The notes beneath the pieces are model-generated. The model was not told the origin of the DNA, did not search any database, and saw only the letters and a program-made list of their open reading frames with translations. Below, piece by piece: positions 15,552 to 55,716 of a stretch of 64,000 nucleotides of DNA. Origin of the DNA: Solibacillus silvestris (lineage in GTDB: Bacteria > Bacillota > Bacilli > Bacillales_A > Planococcaceae); assembly GCA_001586195.1 (NCBI GenBank), contig CP014609.1, positions 222,001 to 286,000 of the forward strand, written 5' to 3'. Each line of letters begins with the position of its first letter. Positions within the stretch are counted from its first letter, which is position 1. Position numbers and translations under genes: made by a program.

Positions 15552-16331
15552 TTAAATTGCCGCCGTCTTCTTCGTCGCCTGTACAAGGGCTTCGATTGTT
15601 GCCCAGTCTTGCTCAACGAGTGCCGTAACAATTTTACTGCCGACAATTACGCCATCCGCAATGTCGCCGAAGCTTTTTACATGTTCCGTCGTAGAAATAC
15701 CGAATCCTGCTAGAACCGGAATATTGCTCGCTGCTTTCAAGTTTGCAAAGTGCCCGGCAAGTTCCGCGGCAAAGCTTGCACGTTCACCGGTAATGCCATT
15801 TACCGTAACGGCATAAACGAAGCCTTCACTTGCTGCGGCTAATTTCTTAATACGTTCAGGTGGGCTCATCAATGATACGAGCTGGACAAGCGCAATGCCG
15901 TTTACCTTTAAAGCATCATGCAATAAAGCACTTTCTTCATAAGGCATATCCGGTACAATCAGCCCTTGAACACCACCGCGTTTTGCATCCTCGGCAAATG
16001 CTTCAATTCCATAAGCTAAAATCGGGTTTAAGTACGTCATGACAACGAGCGGAATATGGATTTCCTGTGCAAAGCTTTGCAGTTCAGCTAGTACTTTTTT
16101 CAATGACACACCGTGGGCAAGTGCACGTTCACCGGCTAGTTCAATCGTTGGTCCATCTGCTACAGGATCGGTAAATGGAATGCCGACCTCAATTGCGGAA
16201 ACCCCGATTTGCTGCAGCTTTAATATAGTAGGTTTTAAAGTTTCAAGCCCGCCATCGCCTGCCATAATATAAGGAACAAATGCTTTATCCCCTGTTGCTA
16301 ATACGTCTTCAAGCTGTTTTTGCAATGTCAT
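15552..16331 (-). CDS. trpA: tryptophan synthase alpha subunit
   Basis: 259-residue TIM-barrel subunit that cleaves indole-3-glycerol phosphate and passes indole to TrpB. The catalytic region [12 protein letters not shown] and the phosphate-binding glycine regions ([15 protein letters not shown]) are visible. It is the last gene of the operon, its ATG overlapping the trpB stop by 4 bp. Confidence 0.95.
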
Positions 16332-17515
16332 TTCAAGCCACCTCCAAGTTTATCCATTAATGTATGAACATCTTTGTCTCCACGACCTGATAAGCAAACA
16401 ACAACAATTTCATCAGCAGGACGGTTCTTAGCAAATTGACTTGCATAGTAAATGGCATGCGCGCTTTCCAATGCAGGCAAGATTCCTTCTGTTTCACATA
16501 ACAGCTTCACACCTTCAAGGGCCTGTTCATCGGTAACTGAAGGGTAGGCAGCACGACCTGTTTCATGTAAATGACAGTGCTCAGGTCCAACTCCCGGATA
16601 ATCAAGTCCTGCTGAAATTGAATGGGCTTCTTGAACAAAACCGTTATCATCCTGTAATAAGTACATGAACGCACCGTGAAGGACGCCTGTTTTTCCAACA
16701 TGAATTGCTGCCGCATGCTTGTCGGTATTAACACCGGAACCTGCAGCTTCCACGCCATATAATGCAACATCCTGATCTTCCACGAACGGGTAGAACATTC
16801 CGATTGCATTACTGCCGCCGCCAATACATGCAATAACTGTATCCGGAAGACGTCCTTCCTGCTGTAAAATTTGGGCACGTGTTTCATCCCCAATAACACG
16901 CTGGAAATCACGGACAATTGTAGGGAAGGGGTGTGGCCCAAGTGCTGATCCTAAAATGTAATGCGTATCTTCTATATGAGTAACCCAGTGACGCAATGCT
17001 TCATTAACCGCATCTTTTAATGTTGCGGAACCTTTTTCTACTGCAACAACTTTTGTCCCGAGTAGCTCCATACGGAAAACGTTCAGTTGCTGACGGCGTA
17101 CATCTTCTGCCCCCATATAAACGATACATTCCATATCAAGCAATGCACACGCAGTTGCTGTTGCGACACCATGCTGACCTGCCCCTGTTTCAGCGACAAT
17201 CTTTTTCTTTCCCATACGCTTTGCTAAAAGTGCTTGGCCGATCGCATTATTTATTTTATGTGCGCCAGTATGATTTAAATCTTCACGCTTTAAATAGATT
17301 TTCGCACCGCCGACTTTTTTTGTTAAACGCTCTGCAAAATAAAGTGGAGTTTCCCGTCCGACATATTGCTTTAAATAATAGTCAAGTTCTTCCTGGAAAG
17401 AGGGGTCCTTTTTTGCTTCCTCATATGCAAGCTCCAATTCCTCAAGTGAAGTCATCAATGTCTCTGGCACAAATTGACCGCCGAATCGCCCGAAGCGTCC
17501 TTTTACTGTCGTCAT
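16328..17515 (-). CDS. trpB: tryptophan synthase beta subunit
   Basis: 395-residue PLP enzyme joining indole and serine. The PLP lysine is in the HKINNA motif, and [10 protein letters not shown] binds the cofactor phosphate. Full family length. It overlaps trpF by 4 bp and trpA by 4 bp, so the distal operon is tightly coupled. Confidence 0.96.
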
Positions 17516-18129
17516 AAAATCAACTCTCCTTTTGCTGTTTCAATAAAATTCGTAATCACTGCTGAACTTTTTCGACCATCTACTTCTACACCACTTGAAA
17601 CATCTACCGCAAATGGCTCGACAAGCATAATCGCCAGCCCAACATTTTCATTATTTAATCCGCCTGCCAAAATAACCTTTTCAAGCGTGATTTTCACTTT
17701 ATCGAGGAGCATCCAGTCAAAGGATTTTCCGCTCCCTCCACGGAAGTCACTTCCAGGCGCATCAAACAAATAGTAGTCTACATCATATGTCGCCGCACGC
17801 ATCACATCCTCTTCGCCACGAATCGAAAACGCTTTAATTGCCGGCAGTCCGACCTCCTGAATTTTTTCGGGCGTCTCGTCCCCGTGATACTGGATATAAT
17901 CGAGTCCGACTTCTTTTGCAATTTGACGAATAGTGACTGACTCTTCATTGACAAAAACCCCGACTTTTTTAACTGTACTCGGAATTGCCTTTGCCAGTTC
18001 CACTGCTTCCTCTACTGTAATGCGTCGTTTACTGGGCGCAAACATAAATCCGATAAAATCAGCACCTGCTTTGACCGCTGTTTCCACATGTTCGATTTCT
18101 TTTAATCCGCAAATTTTTACTTTTGTCAT
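17512..18129 (-). CDS. trpF: phosphoribosylanthranilate isomerase
   Basis: 205-residue TIM barrel. KICGLK with the catalytic cysteine is at the N-terminus; the conserved aspartate is in [16 protein letters not shown]; and [10 protein letters not shown] plus DVSSGVE bind phosphate. 4-bp overlaps on both sides. All motifs look intact. Confidence 0.95.
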
Positions 18130-18920
18130 CGATTTTCGCCAACCTTTGCTGTTATGTCGATTTGTAGGGCTTTAAGTGATTTTTTGACGTTTCCGCTCCG
18201 CATTAATGCCTCGCCGACTAATATTCCTTTTGCGCCAGCATTCGCCACAAACTGTGCATCTTCCGGACCTAAAATGCCGCTTTCACTAATAAAGGCAATC
18301 GGTGATGGGGGAAGAAGCTGCGCAATTTCAAGTGTTGCTGAAAGTGAAACATCGAATGTTTTCAAATTCCGGTTATTTACCCCGATGATGTTTGCTCCAA
18401 TGGCAAGGGCACGCTTTAATTCCTCGGCATCATGTACTTCAACGAGCACTTCAAGCTGTTTTTCTGTCGCATAGGCGTGTAGGGATTTCAGCTGAACGTC
18501 TGTTAATGCTGCGACAATCAACAGTACAACCGATGCGCCGGCAGCCTTTGCATAGTCGATCTGCACTTCATGGATGATGAAGTCTTTACATAAAACAGGG
18601 ATGTTTACGGCATTTGCAACTGCATTTAAATCCGCATAGCTTCCTTTAAAAAATGCGCGCTCTGTCAATACGGAAATACAGGCAGCACCTGCTTCTTCAT
18701 ATTGTAAAGCTTGCTCAACAGGCTCGACTTCTGTCGCAATATCACCTTTGGAAGGGGAGGCACGCTTCATTTCCGAAATTACTTGCAATGAATTGGCTGA
18801 CATCAATGTTTCATATAAAGAAGGTCGGGCCTTATCAATTGATAAAAACACAGGCTTTGTCGAAAGCAATTGTGGCAACTCAGTCTTTTTTTGGTCAATA
18901 ATACGGTCTAAAATCGTCAT
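18126..18920 (-). CDS. trpC: indole-3-glycerol phosphate synthase
   Basis: 264-residue TIM barrel. EMKRASPSKG carries the catalytic lysine; LCKDFIIHEVQI and IGVNNRNLKTF are signature motifs; ISESGI is near the C-terminus. Normal length and complete. Overlaps trpD and trpF by 4 bp. Confidence 0.95.
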   Translation of the reverse strand: MTILDRIIDQKKTELPQLLSTKPVFLSIDKARPSLYETLMSANSLQVISEMKRASPSKGDIATEVEPVEQALQYEEAGAACISVLTERAFFKGSYADLNAVANAVNIPVLCKDFIIHEVQIDYAKAAGASVVLLIVAALTDVQLKSLHAYATEKQLEVLVEVHDAEELKRALAIGANIIGVNNRNLKTFDVSLSATLEIAQLLPPSPIAFISESGILGPEDAQFVANAGAKGILVGEALMRSGNVKKSLKALQIDITAKVGENR

Positions 18921-19963
18921 TTTACGGGTTCCTCCTGCATCTGTTTTTGGCTATAAGCAACGATATTTTCTAACTTTTCATAAGCGCGTCCGGACAAAAT
19001 GCTGTCCTTCGCCATATCGATTCCTTCCTTCATCGTCGCGGCAAGCCCATATGCAAAGAAGCCAATGCCGGCATTTAAGAGAACTGTATCGAAATACACG
19101 CTTTGTTTTCCCTTTAATAAATCACGCATAATGTCCGCATTTTCTGCAGGAGTGCCGCCACGTATTGCAGAAAGTGGCTGTGCGGCTAAGCCCACATCTT
19201 CAGCGCGCAGTTTAAATGGAATCATATCCCCGCGGTCTAACAGCACAAAAGTGTTTTCACCATCCAGTGATGCTTCATCCATTCCTTGTGCACCAGATAC
19301 GACGATTGCACGCTCACGTCCAAGCATATGGAGCACTTCCGCATAATCCATCGTGAAGGTCGGTCGGTTAATGCCGACAAACTGTGTTTTTAATGGAACA
19401 GGGTTTGTCAGGGGGCCGACTAAATTGAAAATCGTCGGCTTGCCGATTGCCTGTCGCACTTCACCGATCCGTTTTAATTTTGGATGCATGTTCGGTGCAT
19501 GTAAAAAGGCGATACCATGTTGTTTGAGTAATTCGGATGTTTGCTCGATATTCGGCAATAGCGTAATGCCAAGTGCCTCTAACACATCCGAACTTCCTGA
19601 AGCACTTGATACTTTTCTATTGCCGTGCTTCGCTACCGAAATGCTTCCACCTGCCAATACAAAAGCGGAAGTCGTACTAATATTGAAGCTTTGAAGTCCG
19701 TCGCCACCTGTGCCACAATTATCGATATAAATACCTTCCGGTACGTCGACGGCCACGGCATGTGATTTCATTACAGAGGCTAAACCTGCAACTTCGTGTG
19801 CCGTTTCTCCTTTTGCACTCATGGCTGTTAAAAAGAAGGCGATCTGTTCTTTCGGTGTTTGCTCATTAAAAATAAGCTGTGCCGCCTGCTGCATTTCCTC
19901 AAAAACTAAGTGCTCTTTTCGCTCAATCTGTTCAATGTATGGAAGTAAAGACATGTTCATCAT
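18917..19963 (-). CDS. trpD: anthranilate phosphoribosyltransferase
   Basis: 348 residues. DNCGTGGDG binds the pyrophosphate, KHGNRKVSSASGSSDVLE is the signature region, and IFNLVGPLTNP is also intact. It converts anthranilate and PRPP to phosphoribosylanthranilate, so a source of anthranilate is needed, which matters because the upstream TrpE looks inactive. ATG overlaps the trpE stop by 4 bp. Confidence 0.95.
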   Translation of the reverse strand: MMNMSLLPYIEQIERKEHLVFEEMQQAAQLIFNEQTPKEQIAFFLTAMSAKGETAHEVAGLASVMKSHAVAVDVPEGIYIDNCGTGGDGLQSFNISTTSAFVLAGGSISVAKHGNRKVSSASGSSDVLEALGITLLPNIEQTSELLKQHGIAFLHAPNMHPKLKRIGEVRQAIGKPTIFNLVGPLTNPVPLKTQFVGINRPTFTMDYAEVLHMLGRERAIVVSGAQGMDEASLDGENTFVLLDRGDMIPFKLRAEDVGLAAQPLSAIRGGTPAENADIMRDLLKGKQSVYFDTVLLNAGIGFFAYGLAATMKEGIDMAKDSILSGRAYEKLENIVAYSQKQMQEEPVK

Positions 19964-20943
19964 CCTTTCAGTAAAGAGTGGAATGGCACTTCTTCATCTG
20001 CTTTCGAATGAAGCTGAGCGACATTTCCTTGAATTATTATCGTCTGTTCAGGTGTTGTGAAATCGACTTGCCCATTAAAGCCGATATAGCCGATCATGCC
20101 TTGTGCTGGTAATAGCCCTTTCACGACATCGATTGCATGAAGGGTAGGGCTTAACGTACCTGTTGTAACATTGGCAAGTTGTTGCACTGAATTTTCCGTA
20201 CTATAGCGTTCAATTGACGGTGCATCATTCGTAACGGAAATATTTCCGTCTCTTACTTGCATGTAGTTTGATTGTGACGTACCGATTACTGTGCAATCAT
20301 CAAATTCGACATAGTACATATATGGTGCAGCGTGCTCAATGCGCATTTTTCGATAAAGAGAAAGGGCGTCACCTGTAAATTGTGCGCGATAACGTTCATT
20401 TTCATCTTTTTCGACATGTTGCAATGTGTAGGCTGACTGTTCAGGTGTTGGTGTTGTAAACAGCTGTTCAATCAATTGATTAATGTTTGGCTCTACTTGC
20501 TCTGCTTCAATATTTGTATGGAAAACAGCGATTTCATCTGTTAAATGATCAAAAATAACGAGTGTATCGTAAACGTGAAACTGCAGTTCAGGCAATGGCT
20601 TTTGCAATGCATGAATATAGCCAATCCCGCCACCAGTAAACGGATATTCCGTATGTGACGATATACGCGGCATCGCTTGTTTTAATAGTTGGATCAGTTC
20701 GCCTTCATATGTGTAGGCTTTTTTTGAATGATGCGTATGATCTAAGAGCTGATCATCTGTCCCGACATATGTTTTGCGGGGATTGACCCCGATGAACGAA
20801 TAGCGTCCATTGCCATCATATTTAGAGGAACTTTCCAATAAAAACTTCCGTTCACCTTGCAAACGCTGGAAAATAGAAATCGGTGTCAGTAAATCCCCAT
20901 TTACTTTTTTCATTGATGTACGAAAATATTGCTGAACTACCAT
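19960..20943 (-). CDS. trpE: TrpE-derived protein, apparently without catalytic motifs
   Basis: 327 residues against roughly 460-520 for anthranilate synthase component I. The N-terminal half is recognisable: the feedback-site motif LLES, then NGRYSFIGVNP, FTGGGIGYIH and, further on, APYMYY. The catalytic half has collapsed. I cannot find the GDIFQ-type motif, the AGTRxRG motif, the EHxMLVDLARND helix with its Mg ligands, PAGTLTGAPK, the IRT arginine or the GAGIVADS loop. What remains is a bridge LLPAQGMIGYIGFNG and a divergent tail. The frame is open throughout, codon use looks normal, and it overlaps trpD by 4 bp, so it is not a simple frameshift. Start ATG 20943 has AGGAG 8 nt upstream; a longer reading frame runs into the T-box. 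No trpG is in the window. Confidence 0.85.
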   Translation of the reverse strand: MVVQQYFRTSMKKVNGDLLTPISIFQRLQGERKFLLESSSKYDGNGRYSFIGVNPRKTYVGTDDQLLDHTHHSKKAYTYEGELIQLLKQAMPRISSHTEYPFTGGGIGYIHALQKPLPELQFHVYDTLVIFDHLTDEIAVFHTNIEAEQVEPNINQLIEQLFTTPTPEQSAYTLQHVEKDENERYRAQFTGDALSLYRKMRIEHAAPYMYYVEFDDCTVIGTSQSNYMQVRDGNISVTNDAPSIERYSTENSVQQLANVTTGTLSPTLHAIDVVKGLLPAQGMIGYIGFNGQVDFTTPEQTIIIQGNVAQLHSKADEEVPFHSLLKG

Positions 20944-21019
20944 TTGAAACACTCCTTTTTTGAAATAAACTACGCCTTTACGATTCGGATTATTTAGCAA
21001 TCTTGTAATTAAAGTTTGC

Positions 21020-21347
21020 TGAATAAAAAAAATCGCCCTCAGCAAAAGAATTAACTTTTGCTGAGGACGATCTGCACCGCGTTGCCACCTCGTTTGAAGC
21101 ATGCCAAAAAAGCCATGCCTCCACTTAAACCTGATAACGGCAGGGTACCGTCCACCGACTAGCGCCAGCAGCTTTCATAAGGCCCATTCACATTTACCTT
21201 TTGGCGTATTTTCACCATCCATACGCTCTCTGGACAAAACAATAAATGCTACTCTTCTTATTCAACAATTTACTCAACTAAGCTCAACTAAACGAAAACG
21301 GTGGTCGCGCTCCCGCAACCTGCTACCGTAAATAACAATTTAATATG
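21020..21347 (-). promoter_or_regulatory. tryptophan T-box leader of the trp operon
   Basis: On the minus strand the T-box core GAGGTGGCAACGCGG (centred near 21083) pairs with uncharged tRNA. It is followed by a terminator, CCTCAGCAAAAG pairing with CTTTTGCTGAGG and then eight T (21027-21068). Stem I carries the CAGAGAG-type bulge, and GTGAATGGGCC places UGG (21184-21186) as specifier codon, which is tryptophan. The operon should be transcribed through when charged tRNA-Trp is scarce. Confidence 0.92.
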
Positions 21348-21452: not shown

Positions 21453-21938
21453 CTAAATTAATTTTTTGAAATTCAATCGTTTATTTAAAGTGTACATAAT
21501 CGGTGCTCCAACCGCCAATACAACAAATTCGCCAAATGCTACAAACAGCCAAGTTTCCCAGAACGGGAAGCCGAGAACAATATTCAGCTGTGCTGCAATG
21601 ATAAACATTGTAAACGTAAATAGCGTTGTATTAATGATCAGACGAGCCCAAATATTTTTCACAAACTTACAAATGAATATGAAAATTCCCAGTGTAATAA
21701 TCGTATGTCCCACACCGAATATTAAGTCAATTGGACCGATTGAAGACAGCAGGAAATTGGAAATAAATACACCTAAAACAACACCTAACATATAGCGCGG
21801 GTTAAAAGCGACTAAATGGTTAAAAATTTCGGCAATACGGAACTGTACTTGCCCAAAGCTAATTGGTGCAACAAGCATTGTGACAGCAATATACAATGCT
21901 GCAATAATGGCACTCGCTGCAATAAACTTTACTTTCAT
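21453..21938 (-). CDS. queT: QueT family queuosine-precursor transporter (ECF S component)
   Basis: 161 residues, with five to six hydrophobic helices. The FRIAEIFNHL segment and overall size fit QueT/DUF988, the substrate-binding membrane component of an energy-coupling-factor importer for preQ1/preQ0-type queuosine precursors. The preQ1 riboswitch in its leader makes the assignment secure. The shared ECF ATPases and T component are not in the window. Confidence 0.9.
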   Translation of the reverse strand: MKVKFIAASAIIAALYIAVTMLVAPISFGQVQFRIAEIFNHLVAFNPRYMLGVVLGVFISNFLLSSIGPIDLIFGVGHTIITLGIFIFICKFVKNIWARLIINTTLFTFTMFIIAAQLNIVLGFPFWETWLFVAFGEFVVLAVGAPIMYTLNKRLNFKKLI

Positions 21939-21946
21939 ATGAAATT

Positions 21947-21990
21947 CCTCCTAGTTTTTTAACGTGGGATGGTTACGAACCACGCAAAGC
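21947..21990 (-). promoter_or_regulatory. preQ1-I riboswitch of queT
   Basis: On the minus strand GCGTGG...CCACG forms the P1 stem around TTCGTAACCATCC, followed by the A-rich tail TTAAAAAACTAGGAGG. The last bases pair back into the loop as a pseudoknot and include the queT ribosome binding site, so ligand binding should block translation. Confidence 0.88.
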
Positions 21991-22278: not shown

Positions 22279-23295
22279 ATGAGAAAAAACTTAATGAAGC
22301 TGTCCTTTTTATTATTCGGGCTTCTTTTATTATTAGCTGCTTGTGGCACGGAAGAGAGCGAGACATCTTCGAATGAGACAACAAAAGGCGAGGCTGCAGA
22401 TACAGCTAATGCAGATAGTGAAAAAACATTTAAAATCGGAACAACACAAATTGTTGAGCATCCATCATTAGATGCAGCAAAAGAAGGATTTAAAAAAGCA
22501 ATTGAAGATGCAGGTATTAAAGCAGAATACGTAGATAAATCAGCAAACAACGATAACAGTGCGAACATGACAATCGCCCAGCAGTTAGTCGGGGATAATG
22601 TAGATCTGATTTTCGCGAACTCAACACCTTCAGCACAGGCGGCAAAAAGCGCAACTTCTGATATTCCGGTTATCTTCACATCGGTAACGGATGCAGTAGG
22701 TGCAGAATTGATCGAGTCAATGGCAACACCTGGTGCTAACGTAACAGGTACGATTGATTTACATCCGGAAACAATGCCGAAAACAGTTGCTTTCCTAAAA
22801 GAATTAGGGGCAAAAAATGTAGGGATGGTATTTAACGCTGGTGAGCAAAACTCAGTTGCACAAATTGCGGCAGTAAAAGAAATTGCAGCAAAAGAAGGCG
22901 TAACGATTGTGGAAGCAGCAGTTTCTGCTTCATCTGAAGTACGCCAGGCAGCAGAATCATTAGTAGGAAAAGTAGATGCATTTTATATTATTACAGATAA
23001 TACTGTTGTATCGGCACTTGAATCTGTAATCGAAGTAGCAGATGCAAACAAATTACCGCTAGTTGTTGGTGAGCTTGATTCAGTAGAGCGAGGCGGTTTA
23101 GCAGCATACGGTTTCGAATACTACGATATCGGCTATGAAGCAGGGCAAATGGCGGCACAAATTTTATTAGAAGGCAAATCACCTTCAGAAGTTCCAGCTG
23201 CATACCCGGCAAACTTAAAATTGGTAATCAATAAAGCAACAGCAGAAAACTTAGGCTTGGAAATTAAGCCTGAATGGGAAGCCGAAGTACAATAA
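22279..23295 (+). CDS. ABC transporter substrate-binding lipoprotein, TrpX type
   Basis: 338 residues. Lipobox LLAAC gives Cys22. The mature part is an ABC_sub_bind (periplasmic-binding type 1) domain with KIGTTQIVEHPSLD, FANSTPSAQAAK and the hinge segment SVTDAVGAEL. This family includes TrpX of streptococcal tryptophan uptake systems. Tryptophan specificity is inferred from family and from the neighbouring trp operon; other aromatic or small solutes are possible. RBS AGGGGGA. The first gene of a three-gene transporter. Confidence 0.85.
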   Translation: MRKNLMKLSFLLFGLLLLLAACGTEESETSSNETTKGEAADTANADSEKTFKIGTTQIVEHPSLDAAKEGFKKAIEDAGIKAEYVDKSANNDNSANMTIAQQLVGDNVDLIFANSTPSAQAAKSATSDIPVIFTSVTDAVGAELIESMATPGANVTGTIDLHPETMPKTVAFLKELGAKNVGMVFNAGEQNSVAQIAAVKEIAAKEGVTIVEAAVSASSEVRQAAESLVGKVDAFYIITDNTVVSALESVIEVADANKLPLVVGELDSVERGGLAAYGFEYYDIGYEAGQMAAQILLEGKSPSEVPAAYPANLKLVINKATAENLGLEIKPEWEAEVQ

Positions 23296-23310
23296 TTCAC
23301 TTTATAAAAA

Positions 23311-23360
23311 AAGCAAGTCAGCCTAAACAGGGATAAATGTTTGGGCTGATTTGCTTAAAA
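23311..23360 (+). terminator. strong intra-operon stem-loop
   Basis: AAGCAAGTCAGCCTAAACA pairs with TGTTTGGGCTGATTTGCTT over about 19 bp with few mismatches. It is followed by AAAACTTTT rather than a clean T-run, so it may be a leaky terminator or an mRNA 3'-end stabiliser that keeps the binding protein more abundant than the permease. Confidence 0.65.
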
Positions 23361-23388
23361 CTTTTAAAAAGTCAGGAGATGATTCGAG

Positions 23389-24429
23389 ATGTTTACAGCT
23401 ATGTTTGGGTCAGTGGAGCAAGGGATCATCTATGCAATTATGGCGCTTGGTGTTTATTTAACATTCCGCGTGCTGGATTTTCCGGATTTAACGGTTGATG
23501 GAAGCTTTGTAACGGGTGCAGGGACGGCAGCGATGATGATCGTACTTGGTTATAATCCGTTGCTTGCCACATTGGTTGCAACAGTTGCTGGATTTATTGC
23601 TGGATGCATGACAGGAATTTTACACACTAAAGGGAAAATTAATCCACTGCTTGCAGGGATTTTAATGATGATCGCCCTCTATTCGATCAATCTTCGAATT
23701 ATGGGGTTAAGCTCAGATACCGGTGTAACACGACCAAATATTCCATTATTAAATTCGGAAACAGTTTTTTCTACGTTCGGAGCTTTCTGGTCGAATTTAG
23801 GTATTGATTCCGCGATTACAAACCTATTGAAATCAATGGGCTTAGCTTCTGTTCCAACAACTTGGGGAATTTTAATTTTAATGGTTGTTGTCACGGCGGT
23901 TATTAAACTAGTAGTAGACTGGTTCTTAAAAACGGAAATCGGTCTGGCAATCCGTGCAACAGGTGACAATAAACGAATGATTCGCAGCTTTTCGGCAAAT
24001 ACCGATTCACTCGTCATCTTAGGGCTGGGAATTTCGAATGGTATGGTGGCATTATCGGGTGCCTTGATTGCCCAATATACAAAGTTTGCCGATGTCGGGC
24101 TGGGAATTGGTATGATCGTTGTCGGATTGGCGTCTGTAATTATCGGTGAAGCGATTTTCGGAACAAAGTCGATTGTTCGTGTCACATTTGCAGTTATTGC
24201 CGGGGCAATAATTTACCGAATGATTTACGCATTGGCTTTACGTGTGAAATGGCTTGACTCAGGTGATATGAAATTAATTACGGCGGTTATCGTTATTCTA
24301 GCGCTAGTAATCCCGCAAATCGTAGGGAAATATAAAGAGAAAAAGAGAAAAGCAAAACGTTTGGAAGAGCGTCTCGCATTACAGCAGGCAGAAGTAGATA
24401 TTGAGCAGGGAGGGAAGAGCCTTGCTTAA
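23389..24429 (+). CDS. ABC transporter permease, LivH-like (TrpY type)
   Basis: 346 residues with about eight to nine transmembrane helices of the branched-chain amino acid permease type. FPDLTVDGSFVTGA and the motif LAIRATGDNKRMIRS with its ATPase-contact loop are visible. A cationic, charged cytoplasmic tail follows from residue about 305. Partner of the TrpX-type binding protein. RBS AGGAG upstream of ATG. Confidence 0.88.
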   Translation: MFTAMFGSVEQGIIYAIMALGVYLTFRVLDFPDLTVDGSFVTGAGTAAMMIVLGYNPLLATLVATVAGFIAGCMTGILHTKGKINPLLAGILMMIALYSINLRIMGLSSDTGVTRPNIPLLNSETVFSTFGAFWSNLGIDSAITNLLKSMGLASVPTTWGILILMVVVTAVIKLVVDWFLKTEIGLAIRATGDNKRMIRSFSANTDSLVILGLGISNGMVALSGALIAQYTKFADVGLGIGMIVVGLASVIIGEAIFGTKSIVRVTFAVIAGAIIYRMIYALALRVKWLDSGDMKLITAVIVILALVIPQIVGKYKEKKRKAKRLEERLALQQAEVDIEQGGKSLA

Positions 24430-25287: not shown

Positions 25288-25442
25288 TTGATTGGAGTGA
25301 AGGGGCGACTCCTGGGGGATAAGCGTGACGCCTGAGACCAGGAACAAAAGCTAAAAGAACGCCACGTTCTGTGGCAACGCTTTTGTGACCAACATCGTGT
25401 TGGCCTCACGCCTCCGGAAAGCGCCCCCATAATGGAAATCAA
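25288..25442 (+). repeat. dispersed intergenic repeat, copy 1 (155 bp)
   Basis: Begins TTGATTGGAG and ends GGAAATCAA, giving short inverted ends. Inside is a block also present at 33.2 kb: GGAACAAAAGC...GCTTTTGTGACCAAC, containing the nested hairpins CCAC/GTGG and CCAAC/GTTGG. It matches the style of the extended intergenic repeats of Bacillaceae (TTGATTGGAG ... GCGGAAAGCG ... GGAAATCAA). Confidence 0.8.
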
Positions 25443-33106: not shown

Positions 33107-33308
33107 TTGATTGGAATGGAGGGGAGGCGACTCCAGCGGGAACAGCAAAATTTATTTTGCGACGAAAGCGAAGCGACAGGAGCACCGAGCCGGAGACTTA
33201 GGAACAAAAGCTAAGAACGCCACGTCCTGTGGCAACGCTTTTGTGACCAACTTCGTGTTGTCCCCACGCCGTGCCCGCGGAAAGCGTCCGACCCGGAATG
33301 GAAATCAA
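33107..33308 (+). repeat. dispersed intergenic repeat, copy 2 (202 bp)
   Basis: Begins TTGATTGGAATGG and ends GGAATGGAAATCAA. It shares with copy 1 a nearly identical block of about 59 bp that holds AACAAAAGC...GCTTTTGTG and two smaller hairpins. It carries an extra internal segment (about 33140-33195) absent from copy 1. The end GTCCGACCCGGAATGG is also found at 5644. An open frame across it is not a gene. Confidence 0.82.
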
Positions 33309-55346: not shown

Positions 55347-55469
55347 AAGCAAAGGGGTAAGCAGTTCTTTTATTCGTAATTTCAGCTGAATAAGAAGAAT
55401 TATCTGAAACTTTGGCGATTGAGCACACATTTTTCTGAATATCAGCTATAATAGAGCTATTAATTTTAT

Positions 55470-55645
55470 ATGGACGATAAAGGTTCTTGCTCACTGATAG
55501 AGTAAGGAGTAAAAGGGAAATCGGTGCAATTCCGATGCGGTCCCGCCACTGTAAATGCTAGTTGAGAGCAGTATGCCACTGAAAAACTTTCGGGAAGGCG
55601 CTTATCAACGTTATGCATAAGCCAGGAGACCTGCCTTTATAATGC
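55470..55645 (+). promoter_or_regulatory. cobalamin riboswitch
   Basis: GGGAAATCGGTGCAATTCCGATGCGGTCCCGCCACTGT (split: AATCGGTGCAATTCCG, then GCGGTCCCGCCACTGT) and, 80 nt on, AAGCCAGGAGACCTGCC are the diagnostic core of the AdoCbl riboswitch and B12 box. A terminator follows at 55717, so ligand binding should stop transcription of btuFCD. TATAAT at 55447 may be the -10. Confidence 0.93.
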
Positions 55646-55716
55646 CCTAAAATAAACCTACGAGGATAGGATGTGGCGGATAAATTCTTTTTCCATTGAA
55701 TTTTATTTGCATACGT

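Follow-up and report, generated by a model that had tools for sequence, protein, structure and literature searches.

A conserved TrpE-derived pseudoenzyme, probably a tryptophan-sensing regulator, at the head of the trp operon of Solibacillus silvestris

Why does a tryptophan operon begin with a TrpE that has lost the residues of its catalytic site? The question is raised by a 64,000-nucleotide stretch of Solibacillus silvestris DNA (GCA_001586195.1, contig CP014609.1, positions 222,001 to 286,000 of the forward strand), hereafter the window, in which a TrpE-like gene of 327 codons (19960..20943, minus strand, as are all features of the operon) precedes trpD. TrpE is a standard example of an enzyme inhibited by its pathway's end product, with sensing and catalysis in one chain. 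We show that this gene, a paralogue of TrpE that heads a T-box-controlled trp operon, is under purifying selection and belongs to a clade lacking both E495 and E498; in four genera of the clade most of the deletions are large and much of the catalytic half is missing too. This clade is a natural dissection of TrpE, in which catalysis is lost and the sensing signature is kept. We conclude that the gene encodes a conserved TrpE-derived pseudoenzyme, not a functional TrpE, and that the window protein is probably a tryptophan-sensing regulator rather than the product of a dying gene.

Lost catalytic site and retained tryptophan site

Family models place the window protein close to TrpE but outside it. 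It scores 83.5 bits on Pfam Anth_synt_I_N (PF04715; cut-off 23) and has the TrpE/PabB fold. On Pfam Chorismate_bind only 51 residues match, with 27.6 bits, barely above the cut-off of 27, and on NCBIfam TIGR00564 (TrpE) it reaches 120.7 bits against a cut-off of 517.7. None of 16 positions of the chorismate and Mg2+ site is kept, which agrees with an earlier note, made by a model from the letters of the window, that found the catalytic motifs unrecognisable. The protein is 130 residues shorter than our reference, an intact 457-residue operonic TrpE from genome G199, with six gaps of at least 5 residues; the note was right that residues are missing in several places, and its figure of 140-190 was slightly high. 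Thus, the protein shares with TrpE the N-terminal domain, the LLESX10S motif, the overall fold and the operon position behind a tryptophan T-box, but not the length, the chorismate side or the family score.

The tryptophan site is retained in three parts. The residues read here are labelled, and their roles assigned, by Serratia marcescens numbering (L38, E39, Y292, F294, E309, E358, E361, T425, Y449, D463, R469, G482, E495, E498 and K502); three of the 16 chorismate-side positions (Q of GDxFQ, K of GAPK and K502) are motif positions and not known catalytic residues. The labels G328, T329, H398, G485, S40, P291, M293, V453 and Y455 come from excerpts of PMC10464499, and the LLESX10S motif with R65, F68, H170 and D453 of Mycobacterium tuberculosis TrpE from excerpts of PMC6437058. 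In the window protein, LLES-X10-S-F occupies residues 35-50 (20794..20841), with LLESX10S at 35-49. The second part is PYMY (residues 207-210; 20314..20325), and the third is GMIGYIGFNGQVD (residues 282-294; 20062..20100), which holds the counterparts of V453, Y455 and D463. H133 (20545..20547) aligns with M. tuberculosis H170, a residue of cooperativity. The LLES and PYMYY noticed earlier are therefore present, LLES being in fact LLES-X10-S.

A catalytically dead clade in six genera

We searched 261 genomes of the family and checked residues at the chorismate-side positions. Operonic TrpEs with lost positions were found in 60 genomes of six genera: g1 (Solibacillus, 16), g3 (3), g6 (1), g8 (32; at a guess, Lysinibacillus proper), g9 (3; the Lysinibacillus odysseyi group, whose named records carry the same proteins) and g11 (5). 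All 60 dead copies were aligned and read at both sites. E495 and E498 are kept in none, and chorismate-side matches number 0 to 5 of 16, except in g6 with 10. The LES, X10-S, R48, F51, H147 (H133 in the window protein) and D463 positions are kept in all 60. Exceptions in the tryptophan pocket are P291 (kept in 34), Y292 (59), M293 (50) and Y455 (28, with F in the other 32). In every dead-copy locus trpD is next on the same strand. The operonic TrpEs read in g5, g12, g13, g14 (G142), g17 and g19 have all 16 positions, and that of G159 (g15) has 14. A plasmid search gave 15 records, all below 25% identity and, where annotated, TrpE or PabB. A record titled Arthrobacter beigongshangensis (L066) bears a Sporosarcina-like trp operon and is probably a mislabelled or contaminated assembly.

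Is the tryptophan site kept better than the rest of the protein? Columns with at least 95% conservation among 26 intact TrpEs, 111 in all, were scored in 33 dead copies. The nine tryptophan-site columns had a mean retention of 0.89, the fifteen catalytic columns one of 0.17 and the remaining 87 one of 0.51. The low catalytic value arises partly by construction because the six genera were picked for lost catalytic positions; the comparison of tryptophan-site with other columns is unaffected by that choice. When the domains were split, with sixteen catalytic columns, tryptophan-site retention in the C-terminal part was 0.76 versus 0.38 (four columns, p 0.019), whereas in the N-terminal part, where nearly everything is kept, it was 1.00 versus 0.87 (p 0.07). 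An arginine and a histidine link the sites of the two TrpE subunits in M. tuberculosis, according to excerpts of PMC6437058; their counterparts and LLESX10S are invariant in the dead copies. The dead copies also have three signature sites of their own, R56, T58 and T98. R56 and T58 (PRKTY) are fixed in 33/33, whereas among 17 close intact relatives R56 occurs in none and T58 in about one. The corresponding search for partner signatures gave no site in TrpD and one in the second, intact TrpE of these genomes (TrpE2, described below); g18, on a longer branch, is alone in differing at five TrpD sites.

Within Solibacillus, the protein is present and free of stops in all 16 genomes, at 325-332 residues, and the other 15 copies are 61-94% identical to the window protein. 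The ratio of nonsynonymous to synonymous substitution (dN/dS, by NG86), a check proposed in the earlier note, is low: 0.089 in close and 0.115 in wider pairs, compared with 0.036 and 0.032 for trpD and 0.054 and 0.052 for TrpE2 of the same genomes. For the whole protein it is about 0.1; the N-terminal domain has 0.06-0.08, and the lowest values fall there and near GYIGFNGQVDF. Normal-length homologues in close relatives beside a single damaged, neutrally evolving copy, which the note had named as refutation, were not seen, and neither were the broken frames of a pseudogene. An assembly or sequencing error is rejected since the same form occurs throughout the genus, and recent decay of a single copy by dN/dS.

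In a tree of 59 TrpE sequences, including 8 of the 16 g1 and 6 of the 32 g8 copies, the dead copies form one clade (100/98) within operonic TrpEs, grouping with those of Sporosarcina, Viridibacillus and Rummeliibacillus (100/99). The identity of the sister is weakly supported (82/51). The nearest intact operonic relatives, in Sporosarcina and Viridibacillus, have 457 residues and all 16 positions, unlike the window protein. TrpE2 forms a separate group (94/86), and this placement rejects an origin of the dead copies from TrpE2 or PabB. Deletions, given in the numbering of the 457-residue reference, differ among genera. g1 lacks 116-126, 194-219, 282-318, 333-346, 370-395 and 441-457; g11 lacks 181-226, 283-346 and 377-396 together with most of the C-terminus; g3 has lost the C-terminus as well as about 181-220 and 369-395, with 282-318 kept; and g9 lacks 277-314 and 333-346. 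Nothing large is missing in g6 and in most of the 13 g8 copies mapped. Thus, the dead copies are at different stages: full length (g6, g8), partly reduced (g9, g3) and most reduced (g1, g11). In a TrpD tree g6 groups with g1 with moderate support (86/86). Because g6 retains its full length, the deletions in g1 seem to have arisen apart from those in g9 and g11.

A second TrpE and the role of the dead copy

If the operonic TrpE is dead, where does anthranilate come from? The S. silvestris genome, one contig of 3.99 Mb, encodes four full chorismate-binding enzymes outside this locus. TrpE2 (464 residues; 556.4 bits on TIGR00564, over the cut-off) is followed by TrpG, and this intact trpE-trpG pair, about 1.93 Mb from the window gene, has its own T-box. 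The pathway therefore appears complete, split across two T-box operons, and the suggestion that another TrpE supplies anthranilate is borne out by this genome-wide search. The second enzyme (464.5 bits, under the cut-off), adjoining an amidotransferase and a PabC-like frame, is read as a putative PabB; judging by sequence and gene neighbourhood, the remaining two are presumably MenF and DhbC. An intact TrpE over the cut-off lies elsewhere in 58 of the 60 genomes with a dead copy, so that an inactive paralogue is retained beside an enzyme that, judged from sequence, is active. All 11 TrpE2 copies read in the dead-copy genera have 16/16 positions, and trpG adjoined in the 6 neighbourhoods viewed. 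In G025, a 2.1 Mb draft, no intact TrpE2 over the cut-off was found. In G063 (g8) the TrpE2 match is split in two (L211 and L215; G063:C1:2739020-2740350, with a TAG reported inside), its relatives having intact copies; this is a sequencing error, or else the strain is a natural auxotroph. At L150 (G077), one 513-codon frame that matches TrpD stands after trpE2 and seems to be a fusion of TrpG with TrpD. Viridibacillus G259 retains both TrpEs with 16 positions each, and the G159 operonic copy keeps 14; thus, the presence of both genes does not force loss. Automatic annotation likely labels the dead genes anthranilate synthase, and metabolic models would then assign this enzyme to the wrong locus.

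We consider it somewhat probable that the dead TrpE adopts the fold of TrpE's regulatory side, takes up L-tryptophan in the allosteric pocket that it has kept, forms dimers via the retained sensing face (the LLESX10S loop, R47 and H133) and serves as a tryptophan-dependent regulatory subunit. Its likeliest partners would be TrpE2:TrpG, as a hetero-subunit, or TrpD, and the evidence favours neither. TrpE2:TrpG is plausible because the retained face couples two TrpE subunits in M. tuberculosis. TrpD is plausible because its gene comes next in the operon and because, in excerpts of PMC10464499, enteric anthranilate phosphoribosyltransferase is tryptophan-sensitive only when complexed with anthranilate synthase. 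As for its origin, we hold it an even question whether, once a second trpE-trpG pair was able to supply anthranilate, the operonic TrpE lost catalysis and then its catalytic half genus by genus, becoming a stand-alone tryptophan-binding trans-regulator like HisZ. If so, a feedback sensor has been turned into a separate protein, built from the pathway's own first enzyme. Because intermediates survive, the evolution of such a pseudoenzyme is directly testable in cultivable bacteria.

The earlier note had offered two readings, a pseudoenzyme kept as a tryptophan sensor or scaffold, which our results support, and a decaying gene whose frame stays open through coupling within the operon, which they contradict. 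A scaffold without sensing, which would stabilise TrpD, TrpG or TrpE2 and have its tryptophan site only as part of the fold or around a structural tryptophan, is unlikely. The whole N-terminal fold is retained, beyond the pocket, and in excerpts of PMC3937554 Chlamydia trachomatis TrpB needs an inactive, full-length TrpA for its function. However, near-invariance of D463, LES...S and Y292 across genera with different C-terminal deletions argues against a purely structural site. An amidotransferase decoy, which would capture PabA or TrpG and so divide the ammonia supply between the folate and tryptophan pathways, is improbable. In Sporosarcina no trpG separates operonic trpE from trpD, so PabA was probably shared in the ancestor, and S. 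silvestris encodes two amidotransferases of this type, next to TrpE2 and PabB respectively, but the catalytic half has lost large blocks. In G085 (g12; L149 and L180) the order is trpE-trpG-trpD, with an intact operonic TrpE.

Decay, with the frame open only through translational coupling to trpD, draws on spacing. The stops of dead copies lie -38 to +8 nt from the trpD start (41 of the 60 measured, 19 g8 copies being left out), whereas in 22 of 23 intact loci with adjoining trpD, some of them entered under two ids, the distance is +13 to +55 nt; the exception, L062, an intact Sporosarcina locus, has a 4-bp overlap. G085, because of its intervening trpG, and G118, G095, G032 and Planococcus ruber, where trpD was not found downstream of intact trpE, are outside this count. 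The terminal Lys-Gly codons may also double as the Shine-Dalgarno sequence of trpD. Yet coupling constrains the frame and not the residues, and dN/dS is low. Moreover, in nine genomes (g7 1, g14 3, g15 1, g18 4) the T-box stands directly before trpD with no TrpE-like frame between; eleven were queried, and the other two, G016 and G163, have an upstream TrpE frame. An upstream frame is thus not required for trpD translation. These absences fall in several places on the TrpD tree, with g18 inside the dead-TrpE clade, and in all five frame-less genomes searched (G036, G148, G233, G241 and G253) a TrpE over the cut-off adjoins trpG. Since clean loss is possible and trpD is independent of the gene, presence in 60 genomes elsewhere argues for selection; the same nine absences indicate that the function is not indispensable. 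Together with conservation in six genera, this makes decay very improbable. Fixation of R56 and T58, near-absent in intact relatives, hints at a new function, but a remodelled site that carries out a new reaction is the most doubtful reading, with the chorismate-side positions gone and only three signature sites.

A regulatory subunit of this kind has a known counterpart. HisZ, the regulatory subunit of short-form ATP phosphoribosyltransferase, is described in excerpts of PMC10795190 as a catalytically inactive protein that serves a pathway and is a paralogue of an enzyme recognising that pathway's end product, so a dead paralogue can carry end-product feedback. HisZ differs in deriving from a tRNA synthetase and in having a proven complex, whereas the window protein derives from the pathway's first enzyme and its complex is hypothesised. 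The inactive TrpA of C. trachomatis (PMC3937554, in part) is likewise a dead trp-pathway protein kept for a partner's need, but it is full length and reported from one species; here six genera are involved, four with large deletions in the catalytic half. Among the papers listed by our searches of open-licence PMC articles, none dealt with a TrpE pseudoenzyme.

The trp operon and its surroundings

The operon is headed by a T-box leader (21060..21274; Rfam RF00230, full model, 124.4 bits) with a predicted specifier TGG (Trp; UGG in RNA) at 21184-21186, within GAATGG. A UGG motif is at the expected position in 33 of 34 T-box leaders, a part of those found with dead, intact and TrpE2 operons pooled; the exception, L034, is a TrpE2 leader. 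The TrpE-like gene has a Shine-Dalgarno sequence, AAAAGGAG (20952..20959), 8 nt before its ATG, and frame reading together with the Rfam match confirms the 327-residue open frame behind a tryptophan T-box described earlier. The other five enzymes, said to be intact, each exceed their family cut-off: trpD, anthranilate phosphoribosyltransferase (18917..19963; TIGR01245, 343.9 bits, cut-off 199.05), trpC (18126..18920; NF001371, 312.5, cut-off 307), trpF (17512..18129; NF002300, 231.7, cut-off 212), trpB (16328..17515; TIGR00263, 648.3, cut-off 392.45) and trpA (15552..16331; TIGR00262, 226.8, cut-off 102.35). The reported 4-bp overlap with trpD holds for the first in-frame trpD ATG, but the likely real start, 19954, lies past the stop. 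In L011-L015 trpD starts 6-7 nt beyond the TrpE-like stop, and the equivalent ATG in the window is 19954, 5 nt beyond. AAAGGA at the 3' end of the TrpE-like gene resembles a ribosome-binding site and may be that of trpD.

Just upstream of the operon, a PreQ1 riboswitch (21945-21989, minus strand) precedes a 161-aa frame (21453-21938), and it again adjoins the trp operon in several relatives. Beside the operon, frames at 22279-24429 (plus strand) presumably encode an ABC transporter substrate-binding protein and permease, which they resemble, and could serve amino acid uptake, perhaps of tryptophan; the Rfam scan at the gathering threshold gave no T-box before them. The window also contains two Bacillaceae-1 RNAs (25335-25403 and 33195-33261, plus strand) and a cobalamin riboswitch (55464-55652, plus strand).
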